Positions 17,312 to 21,776 of a stretch of 64,000 nt of DNA are shown piece after piece (within the stretch, counting starts at the first letter, position 1; the number at the start of each line of letters is the position of its first letter). Source of the stretch: Candidatus Omnitrophota bacterium (lineage in GTDB: Bacteria > Hinthialibacterota > Hinthialibacteria > Hinthialibacterales > Hinthialibacteraceae); the NCBI GenBank assembly GCA_003598175.1, contig QZKN01000002.1, positions 1-64,000 of the forward strand. The letters run 5' to 3'. The position numbers were made by a program, and so were the translations under genes. The notes beneath the pieces were generated by a model, which did no database searches, was not told where the DNA came from, and worked only from the letters and a program-made list of their open reading frames with translations.

Positions 17312-17372
17312 AACAAATACAGGATTTCATGAAAGTAACACCTCCGATTTCTCAACCTGAAAGATAACGCAG

Positions 17373-18335
17373 ATGACTAAAGAGCAAACCATCTACGACA
17401 GCGCTTGGAAATACATCCTGGATCAGTTCTTTCCGTCTTTCATCCGGTTTTTCTTCCCGGAAATTTATGATGAGATCGATTGGGAGCGCGGTCATGAATT
17501 TCTGGACAAGGAATTTCAAAAAATTGTCCGTGCAGCAAAAACCGGCAAACGGTATGTCGATAAATTGATCAAAATCTTTCTGAAAACCGGGGAAGAAACC
17601 TGGGTACTGTTTCATGTCGAAGCGCAGGCCCAGCCCGATCTAAACCTGCCGGAGCGGATGTATATTTATAACAGTCTGATTTATCTACGATACCGACGGA
17701 AAACCATGAGCATCGCGATTCTCGGAGATAACAATCCGAATTGGCGTCCCACACATTTCGAGTATACTATAGGAAGTACGCGTGTCAGTCTCCAATTTAG
17801 CATGGTGAAATTGCTGGATATAAAGACACGTTTTGAAACGGAAAAACAAAGCAAAAATCCTTTTCATTTCTTCGTGGAAGCCCATCTTAGAACGCTCGAA
17901 ACTCGGAAAAACTATCGAAGACGATCGGAATGGAAATTCGAGATAACCAAACGGATGATTCAACAAGGGATGGATCAGGGAACTGTCGATGCGCTGTTTC
18001 AATTCATTGATTATCTCATGGTTTTACCGGAGCATTTGGAAGAAGAATTCATGGAAAAAATCGATCAACTGAAGGAGGAAGAAAACATGCCATTTGTCGC
18101 TCCCTATGAAAAAATTATCATGAAACGAGGAGTCAAGCAAGGATTGGAACAGGGAAGTCTTCGAGAAGCTCGTGATGCCGTGTTCGACATTTTGAACACC
18201 CGCTTCATGGAAATTCCTTACTCGATAAACGAGTCGATCCAAAAAATGGACAACGTATCCCGTTTACGAGAATTACGCAAACTTGCAATCACTACCCCAT
18301 CTCTTGATGAATTCAAACAAATGTTGAAATCATAA
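17373..18335 (+). CDS. Rpn family recombination-promoting nuclease/putative transposase (PD-(D/E)XK), copy 1
   Basis: FDSAWKYILD-type start (YDSAWKYILDQFFPSFIRFFFPEIYDEIDWERGHEFLDKEFQKIVRAAKTGKRYVDKLIKIFLKTGEETWVLFHVEAQAQ). Confidence 0.85.
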   Translation: MTKEQTIYDSAWKYILDQFFPSFIRFFFPEIYDEIDWERGHEFLDKEFQKIVRAAKTGKRYVDKLIKIFLKTGEETWVLFHVEAQAQPDLNLPERMYIYNSLIYLRYRRKTMSIAILGDNNPNWRPTHFEYTIGSTRVSLQFSMVKLLDIKTRFETEKQSKNPFHFFVEAHLRTLETRKNYRRRSEWKFEITKRMIQQGMDQGTVDALFQFIDYLMVLPEHLEEEFMEKIDQLKEEENMPFVAPYEKIIMKRGVKQGLEQGSLREARDAVFDILNTRFMEIPYSINESIQKMDNVSRLRELRKLAITTPSLDEFKQMLKS

Positions 18336-18346
18336 TTCTTTACTTC

Positions 18347-18610
18347 TCATTCGTAAATCATACGATCCCCAATCCGCAAAAACCGTTTTGCTCCGGCATG
18401 GTTGCCCGAAGTGAAATTCGGTAGTTGATCCTTCGGGATTCTAAAAATTTCTAAATTATCGAACTGCACCGTCACCCGCGCCGCATTCGGGCTGTTGGCC
18501 GCTTGAAAGACCGGCACAATCGCGCCCCGCTCGGATTTGTAAAAGGCTTCGAGATACACAAACACCGGCTGGCATTCGTCAATAATATCCACTTTGCATC
18601 TGTACCCCAT
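18347..18610 (-). pseudogene. Fragment resembling the C-terminus of the adjacent 18629-20238 protein
   Basis: VPVFQAANSPNAARVTVQFDNLEIFRIPK compared with IAVVQLGGPNVNGSVIIDNLELFMTE. Confidence 0.45.
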
Positions 18611-18628: not shown

Positions 18629-20238
18629 TTATTCTGTCATAAACAATTCCAAATTATCAATTATCACACTTCCGTTCACGTTGGGACCCCCCAACTGCAC
18701 TACAGCAATAGGCGGCGTTTGTTTTCCACCGATTTCAAAATTTCCCCCAATATGAATTTCTTTGAATTCACCTATCGGAAAGCTCTGCATCGGAAGAAAT
18801 CGGGCGACGCTTTGCTCGCCATCCGTTATCATGAAGGCAATTGTTCCATCTTCACCGTTCTCTCTTTTTACATATACACTCCCGTGAATCATTACCGGCA
18901 TTTGTGGAGCAATAGAAAATAAAGCAACATGAGAAGCCAATTGATTGGCTAACAAACTTAAACCGATCCCCTGCCCACTCATCCCTTGTGTCAGAGAAAC
19001 AATGCCGGGAATTTCTCCTTGTGGTAAGAACGCGTTTGGATTCACACCAACAAGAAGACGATTTACGGAATCAAATGTATTATCGCCTTGCATATGAATC
19101 GATTGTGTCGATTCATATTTGATTGGAGCAACTTGCAACGTATCAATATAAACGGTATTTAAACCACTCGTCACCCCTTCTTCCACAACAAATTGAAGCG
19201 CTGGGATAATCTGTGGAGAGGGGGAATCATAAATCAGACTCATTTTACCCCATTTATTAACGGGAACCTCTCTTTGAACCGGATTGACATAACCGAAATC
19301 ACTTCCAATTTCCCCGCCGGCAAAAGCAACCAATCCCATTTGAACCTTATCACTGGTTGCTCTTGCTGATACTGATAACTCAATCATTTGTTGTTCCAAA
19401 TCAACCGGAGTGTTTCCAAGCAGAAAAGCACCTTCTCCCGGTTTTAAGAATAACAACATCCCACTGCCATCGGTTGCGCCAGCAAAATCATTATCAGTCG
19501 GGACAAAACCGTAATCAACCGCTAATGGAAGATCGAAATTTGGCACTGGTAAAACAGAAAAGTCTTCTAACGATATCCCTTCGGGAATGGGGGTTGGAGT
19601 GTATGTGGGAGTTGATGTTGGTAAGGGTGTTTGTGTCGGAGTTGGAGTAGGAGGGATCGTATTCAGCAAGGTAATAGCCGCAATCATAAGATGTTGATTA
19701 TCGTTTTCAATATTTTTTATACTTATCCTACGTAGATTTATCCCCGAATAACTCATACTTGTAAAAAATATAGAACCAACTCTATTACTGCCATCTACAT
19801 AAATTTGCAACTCTCTTACCACAGTTGCTCCAGGACCTTTTAGATACCAATCGTATGTAGAAAAAGTACCAAATACTTTATTACCAGATATTGTTTCCAT
19901 ATTTACCTCAACATTCAACTCATCAGAATAGATATAATTCCCACTACATAGAAAAGCAATTCCTTCGGAATAAATTGAATTTTGAAGATCGATAGTTATT
20001 TGATTACCTTGTGCTATAGAAATTACTCCACCATTGGGTGCAAATTCAAAAAGTATGTCACCGTAAGTTAAAGAAGAAGAAAACCATTCTCTATAGCCAT
20101 AAGCAGTTTGATTTGCCCATGGAGAATAATAATTACGATTACAATAATTTGCTAAATCAATGGGCAAATCAGATGCAAAGGAAGGAAGGAAGGAAGGAGC
20201 AAAAAGACGGCCAGGAAAAGGGTGGTTTTGTGATTCAT
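18629..20238 (-). pseudogene. Secreted PT-linker surface protein, out of frame at a CCTT repeat in the signal peptide (phase-OFF or frameshifted)
   Basis: AGGAGGT SD (20251-20245), ATG at 20238, MNHKTTLFLAVFLLLPSFLP then frame shift at (CCTT)5; 512-codon body open from 20167 to 18629 with TPTPTQTPLPTSTPTYTPTP linker. Confidence 0.75.
20178..20197 (-). repeat. Tetranucleotide SSR (CCTT)5 on minus strand
   Basis: Plus-strand AAGG x5 within aaaggaaggaaggaaggaaggagc. Confidence 0.95.
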
Positions 20239-20408
20239 GTCGAGACCTCCTAAATTGATTTAATTTATCCTATCATATTTGAAACCATGCCGTCAATATT
20301 ACTTGATATATTTTGAAGAAAAATTTAAAATCGGAAACAGATTTGATTATCGGTAGGAAATTCATATGTTCTTCTAAATCAAGCTGTTACGTATGGAGGT
20401 AAAGCAAT

Positions 20409-20461
20409 GCGGGCAGGATGCCCGCGCTCCGACCATAACGCTCCGACTGGAACGCTCCGAC
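20409..20461. repeat. Palindrome GCGGGC-AGGAT-GCCCGC followed by 3 CGCTCCGAC repeats at 14-bp period
   Basis: CGCTCCGAC at 20425-20433, 20439-20447, 20453-20461. Confidence 0.85.
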
Positions 20462-20479
20462 AATAAAGGAAACAAGCCG

Positions 20480-21538
20480 ATGAAACACGAGTATGCCATC
20501 TTTGACAGCGCCTGGAAAGAAATTCTGGAAGCGCATTTCCCATCGTTCATCCAATTCTTCTTCCCGGAAATCCACGATGAGATCGATTGGAAACACGGTC
20601 ATGAATTTCTGGACAAGGAGTTTCAAAAAATCGTCCGCGCGGCAAAAACCGGCAAACGTTTCGTCGATAAATTGATTAAAGTCTATCGGAAAACCGGCGA
20701 AGAAACATGGGTATTGATCCATATCGAAATGCAAACGCAAGTCGATCACGACCTGGCGGAACGGATCTATGTGTATAACTGCCTGGTTTATTTGCGGTAT
20801 AAACAAAAAGTCATGAGCATCGCAATATTGGGAGATGAAAATCCCCACTGGCGACCGGACCGATTCGACTATACTATATGGGGTAGTCAGGCGTTTCTGC
20901 GATTTCGAACCGTGAAATTATTGGATTACCGGATTGGCATCGAAGACCTGCAAACCGGTTCGAATCCATTCGCTTTCTTCGTGGTTGCCCATCTCAAGAC
21001 ATTGGAAACCCAAAAGGATTTGGGTAAACGCCTGGAATGGAAAACGGCAATCACGAAACGAATGGTGGAACTGGGAATGCCGGAAGCGGAAGCCGCCTCG
21101 TTATTCCGGTTCATCGATTTTTTGATGTATTTGCCCGAAGATTTGGAAATGGAATTAACGGAAATCATTCATCAATATCAGGAGGAAAAAAAAATGCCGT
21201 TCATTGCTCCGTTTGAAGAACTGGCCATGAAAAAAGGATTTCAAGAAGGGAAAAATGAAGGTTGGCAAGAAGGCAGACAAGAAGGCAGACAAGAAGGCAG
21301 ACAAGAAGGCAGACAAGAAGGCAGGCAAGAAGGCAGACAAGAAGGTAGGCAAGAAGGCAGCCTTCAGGTATCTCGTGAAGCCGTAATCGACATATTAAAC
21401 ATGCGATTCGCGAAAATTCCTTACTCTGTAAATGAATCGATCCAAAACATCAACCATTTATCACGGTTACGGGATTTGCGCAAATATGCAATCGCATCCC
21501 AATCACTTGAAGAGTTCACTCAATTATTGGAAAAATAG
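20480..21538 (+). CDS. Rpn family recombination-promoting nuclease/putative transposase (PD-(D/E)XK), copy 2
   Basis: MKHEYAIFDSAWKEILEAHFPSFIQFFFPEIHDEIDWKHGHEFLDKEFQKIVRAAKTGKRFVDKLIKVYRKTGEETWVLIHIEMQTQ; start at internal ATG after the palindrome. Confidence 0.87.
   Translation: MKHEYAIFDSAWKEILEAHFPSFIQFFFPEIHDEIDWKHGHEFLDKEFQKIVRAAKTGKRFVDKLIKVYRKTGEETWVLIHIEMQTQVDHDLAERIYVYNCLVYLRYKQKVMSIAILGDENPHWRPDRFDYTIWGSQAFLRFRTVKLLDYRIGIEDLQTGSNPFAFFVVAHLKTLETQKDLGKRLEWKTAITKRMVELGMPEAEAASLFRFIDFLMYLPEDLEMELTEIIHQYQEEKKMPFIAPFEELAMKKGFQEGKNEGWQEGRQEGRQEGRQEGRQEGRQEGRQEGRQEGSLQVSREAVIDILNMRFAKIPYSVNESIQNINHLSRLRDLRKYAIASQSLEEFTQLLEK
21266..21361 (+). repeat. 12-bp in-frame tandem repeat CAAGAAGGCAGA x8 (QEGR)7-QEGS
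   Basis: Eight consecutive units, variants only at unit positions 9 and 12. Confidence 0.97.
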
Positions 21539-21776
21539 ATTTTCCCTCCCGATTTTAGGCATCCGAGGATGGGGAATGATTCATTTATCCCCCGCAAAAG
21601 TATAATATATGGTTGGAAGAGATTGCAACTGAATCGATTCTGTGGTCAAATAGAGTGGTCTATCACATTACAAGGCCTTAAGGGTGCTGAATACGCCGGG
21701 ATACCAGTCATCCATTCATGTTTTAGCATCGTTAGGTGCGCAACACTTCAAAAAAAAGAAATGGGGAGTGAGAAGA

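Follow-up and report, generated by a model that had tools for sequence, protein, structure and literature searches.

Does the CCTT repeat within the leader of a putative secreted protein act as a switch, or does it mark the site where a gene was broken? The question arises from a sequence-only reading of the 64,000-nucleotide stretch analyzed here (the window), which proposed a phase-variable gene in its OFF state. Its description of the start region was confirmed by direct reading of the minus strand: a perfect AGGAGGT Shine-Dalgarno sequence, a 6-nt spacer and the ATG at 20238 open a leader that enters (CCTT)5 and meets a TAG after 28 codons. The 512-codon body was likewise found in a frame other than that of the leader, with a TTG at 20167 as its first start and no Shine-Dalgarno sequence before it. 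The elements concerned are:

20267..20296, minus strand: promoter-like TTGACG-18 nt-TAGGAT that precedes the leader, a weak (9/12) TG-extended site assigned by consensus match only
20245..20251, minus strand: Shine-Dalgarno sequence AGGAGGT, read from the sequence, followed by a 6-nt spacer and ATG 20238
20152..20238, minus strand: leader open reading frame MNHKTTLFLAVFLLLPSFLPLHLICPLI, with a signal-peptide start, an out-of-frame end and the TAG stop at 20154-20152
20178..20198, minus strand: T(CCTT)5 microsatellite of 21 nt at the frame break; unit numbers divisible by 3 are in frame, 5 is out of frame
18629..20269, minus strand: body reading frame, open for 546 codons from stop to stop, with the mature protein expected from about 20175 (SDLPIDL...)

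The (CCTT)5 array begins 41 nt past the A of the ATG, and the 21-nt tract amounts to 5.25 units. Scanning of the stop-to-stop frame of the body revealed no ATG, GTG or TTG start ahead of TTG 20167. The body is free of other lesions and keeps its coding periodicity (GC1/2/3 of 0.49/0.40/0.29), and the other two frames of the same strand contain 40-41 stops.

The relationship between leader and body was assessed with homologous proteins. A scan of the genome contigs with the single protein retrieved no relative, and a scan with alignment A1 yielded two loci only, both in the USCA_maxbin.089 MAG. The best full-length relative (L006, equal to L101) comes from a MAG labelled Candidatus Omnitrophota that belongs to another family of the same order. 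In it, MNSRSLPILTSIVLVLCITAQA/ADLPVSF... and the complete body share one reading frame, and it is 39-41% identical to the window protein. Its residues QA/ADLPV align with FA/SDLPI of the window, the first residues past the CCTT tract. An intact homologue whose cleavage region falls at the corresponding place in the alignment indicates that leader and body are one gene broken in or at the repeat, as the sequence-only reading had supposed. The cleavage site proposed there, SFA/S, also agrees with the alignment, which supports a mature start at SFA/SDLPIDL; the site was judged by alignment and by the -3/-1 pattern. All three frames of (CCTT)n encode L-P-S-F cyclically and therefore unit numbers divisible by 3 (3, 6, 9) are in frame. 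Thus six units do restore the frame, as had been stated, but they are not the sole possible ON state, since three units are equally acceptable; nor has six been established as the ancestral number. In IMG/VR, a scan for exact leader patterns that might reveal other unit numbers gave no match.

The encoded protein consists of a signal peptide followed by three parts:

19664..20167, minus strand: N-terminal domain of about 168 amino acids, single copy in this genome; of 13 other genomes of the class, 3 have homologues
19580..19663, minus strand: Pro/Thr-rich linker (PTPTPTQTPLPTSTPTYTPTPIPEG)
18632..19579, minus strand: C-terminal module of about 310 amino acids with two beta-sandwich-like halves, common to many exported proteins of the order and without a Pfam family

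This plan of signal peptide, variable N-domain, Pro/Thr linker and C-module of about 310 amino acids is shared with an exported family (L006/L101, L004, L017, L018 and others), in which the C-module recurs on different N-domains in this genome and across the order. In some relatives it is followed by a further domain that resembles, by eye, the formylglycine-generating enzyme. In genome G004 the N-domain occurs in two neighbouring genes, of which the first type is lipoprotein-like and the other has a membrane segment at the N-terminus. The homologues are predicted to be exported as well, with signal peptides or as lipoproteins, and the hydrophobic core of the leader resembles that of the paralogues. 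Unlike the target gene, the C-module relatives with examined leaders have these in frame and without a repeat at this place, and their GC content is 53-59%, compared to 39% in the target. A Pfam search of the body returned no family at E ≤ 1, and searches of NCBIfam and of PDB sequences returned nothing usable. A weak NCBIfam match to InlK (E 0.004-0.02) was rejected as homology because it overlaps the Pro/Thr linker. A structure model from the single sequence was useless (pLDDT 34). The three-sequence AlphaFold model reached a pLDDT of 49 overall and about 70-80 in the first half of the C-module, which is all beta. Its top Foldseek matches were to tandem CBM22 and to a glycan-binding surface protein of Bacteroides, at TM-scores of only 0.2-0.3. 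The protein is a member of a so far undescribed family of exported proteins whose C-module is a putative tandem beta-sandwich; as a tentative guess from the model, it might bind glycans (sugars) at the surface or outside the cell.

The tract itself was compared to the background of its own genome. Mutability rises with repeat number, and for tetranucleotides the PhasomeIt cut-off of 5 units is the minimum that is commonly accepted (PMC5953494). The tract in the leader is a non-triplet repeat in the 5' coding region, where unit changes shift the frame; its length lies at this cut-off of at least 5 units, the bare minimum, and above the genome background. The remainder of the gene is intact and would be expressible after slippage, with 512 open codons and a homologue that aligns over the full length. 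In shuffles of the window, 0.02 occurrences of CCTT x3 (12 nt) are expected; the window has three, which overlap one another and all lie in the T(CCTT)5 tract. A census of tetranucleotide arrays covered 2.78 Mb, or 40%, of the 6.88-Mb genome to which the window belongs, and counted 6865 arrays with a length of 8 nt, 41 with 12 nt and 2 with 14 nt. The longest were this tract with 21 nt and a single array of 18 nt. As the frequency drops about 3.6-fold per added base, log-linear extrapolation predicts 6e-4 arrays of at least 21 nt in the 2.78 Mb and 1.5e-3 genome-wide, and 4.5 Mb of sequence simulated with an order-4 Markov model contained 0 arrays above 15 nt. The 21-nt tract thus lies far beyond the array distribution of the genome, which shows that it was made by slippage and not by chance composition. 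A search for the exact (CCTT)5 word gave a single occurrence in this genome and none in 13 other genomes of the class. Conservation of the repeat in orthologues, a supporting rather than a defining feature of such loci, was not observed, as the leader of the full-length homologue is without it.

Neither another tetranucleotide tract of at least 5 units nor a poly-G/C run of at least 10 was detected in the sampled 40% of the genome. On this sample, genome-wide use of microsatellite switches is therefore unsupported, and this is not a genome that employs such switches widely. The second-longest array of the census, an 18-nt (AAGG)4.5 of the same CCTT motif (L037:1501-1518; G000:C7:48453), forms the Shine-Dalgarno region just ahead of the ATG of another gene (MEKTMSQAEIERLF...), where unit changes could alter translation. 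The sole pentanucleotide array, (TGCCT)5, was rejected as a switch since it makes up most of one spacer in a CRISPR-like array with the repeat GTTGCGGATTGATCACAGATTGGGATTGATTACACT (L078:11000-12200; G000:C34) and is not located in a gene leader. The heptamer GGCTGAA is repeated at least three times in tandem at three mutually distant sites, G000:C10:996-1016, C12:41329-41349 and C23:31701-31721 (L171, L172, L173), one of them directly ahead of an ATG.

The gene and a remnant of a related one are enclosed by two Rpn-like genes of like orientation:

17373..18335, plus strand: Rpn-like nuclease/transposase family gene (flank 1), whose protein is 61% identical to that of flank 2
18347..18610, minus strand: C-module gene remnant of 87 amino acids, directly downstream of the target gene
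20393..21538, plus strand: Rpn-like nuclease/transposase family gene (flank 2), in which a 12-bp unit encoding QEGR is repeated in tandem

These genes give rise to direct repeats around the target, 17369-17668 / 20476-20775 (78%) and 18139-18351 / 21342-21554 (71%), and six related copies occur in the genome. The tandem repeat of flank 2 spans 21267-21362 of the window (CAAGAAGGCAGA); it is in frame and length polymorphism would therefore be tolerated. The GC3 of the target gene is 0.29 versus 0.47-0.63 in its neighbours. AT-richness was considered as a sign of decay and rejected: third codon positions show it most strongly, and foreign origin fits better. Because GC1 is kept and stops are absent, acquired AT-rich coding DNA appears more plausible than long decay. 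Together with the truncated paralogue and the flanking Rpn-like genes, the atypical GC3 is in keeping with a locus that is unstable and probably acquired.

The best explanation of the locus is a reversible slippage switch of an exported-protein gene, caught OFF, with a probability of roughly 0.46. The (CCTT)n tract codes for the end of the signal-peptide hydrophobic core, and its five units place the body out of frame, so that ribosomes would terminate once 28 codons have been read and the exported protein would not be produced. Slipped-strand mispairing at replication would add or remove 4-nt units. With numbers divisible by 3, such as three or six units, the protein would be read through without a break and would contain the peptidase site SFA/SD, and each extra 12 nt would simply lengthen the core by LPSF. 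The gene would thereby alternate between an ON state with secreted protein and an OFF state without it, as described for Neisseria opa and autB. Such a switch is favored by the intact start signals and promoter-like site ahead of the leader, by a tract far outside the genome's array distribution, which implies several rounds of expansion and reaches the five-unit cut-off, and by the intact body with a homologue in one frame. Against it stand the reading of the unit number from one assembled genome, with the copy OFF, the expectation that five units slip slowly, the lack of any further tract of this kind in the sampled 40% of the genome, and the truncated paralogue as evidence of local decay. 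A working switch further supposes sufficiently frequent slippage and the presence of both states in the population.

The same break might instead be the outcome of one-off slippage, in which an LPSF codon run (CTTCCTTCCTTT) seeded a short CCTT array and left a young pseudogene without selected reversal; the sequence-only reading had itself named a fixed frameshift as its alternative. This account has a substantial chance of being correct, and it and the reversible switch are considered about equally likely. It agrees with a tract that is unique in the sampled genome and the class set and has only five units, with the adjoining paralogue remnant, and with the flanking Rpn-like repeats and deviant GC3, which fit an acquired, dispensable gene. 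However, 512 codons have stayed intact with coding periodicity, the Shine-Dalgarno sequence, start and promoter-like site are preserved as well, and a 21-nt array implies repeated slippage events, not one. Far less probable is that the five-unit allele already yields full-length protein, either by a 4-nt slip of the ribosome or RNA polymerase or, as a cytoplasmic protein, from TTG 20167. Due to its period-4 self-similarity the tract would re-pair perfectly after a 4-nt slip, and the TTG is present in the body frame; but no classical slippery heptamer lies in frame, the TTG has no Shine-Dalgarno sequence, and a leaderless form would lose the location for which the homologues carry export signals. 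Similarly improbable is a miscount of an in-frame unit number in the contig, since a 21-nt tract that is not a homopolymer is far below short-read length, even though the record resembles a draft metagenome-assembled genome, with 192 contigs and 92% completeness, and microsatellites are an error-prone context.

The arrangement required by the reversible switch has precedents. In opa of Neisseria, a (CTCTT)n repeat lies in the coding region of the leader peptide and switches at rates near 1e-3 per generation (PMC3960869). By analogy, the locus described here would share with opa a frame-breaking microsatellite that encodes part of the signal peptide of an exported protein, with ON and OFF set by the unit number. 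In contrast to the pentanucleotide of opa, which is found at many loci, the repeat here is a tetranucleotide at one locus in an unrelated protein and is known from sequence alone. The autB gene carries (AAGC)n in its signal-sequence region, with 3-19 units in Neisseria and mostly OFF alleles that are otherwise intact (PMC5118866). A tetranucleotide tract in signal-sequence DNA and an otherwise intact OFF allele are thus common to the present gene and autB of Neisseria and Haemophilus, whereas autB encodes an autotransporter and is represented by many strains with differing unit numbers, compared to one genome, another motif and another protein family here. No homology to Opa porin-like or autotransporter proteins was detected, the searches having returned no Pfam family at E ≤ 1 and only the weak InlK match.

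Switches of this kind are known from host-adapted pathogens such as Neisseria, and the mechanism proposed here is ordinary in kind if it is real. In the literature searched, no joint mention was found of phase variation and Omnitrophota, the phylum to which the window genome is assigned through the label of its order-level relative. The locus can tentatively be viewed, at somewhat less than even odds, as a lone signal-peptide microsatellite contingency locus of an exported, perhaps glycan-binding protein, residing in a gene of recent acquisition that two Rpn-like nucleases flank, in an uncultivated lineage with a nearest named relative labelled Candidatus Omnitrophota. If the tract is invariant in the population, the gene is a plain young pseudogene. 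If it varies, signal-peptide slippage switches would arise singly in an uncultivated, large-genome organism that is, as far as known, not a pathogen. This would bear on the origin of contingency loci, as an ordinary LPSF-coding seed would have expanded in a newly acquired exported gene.
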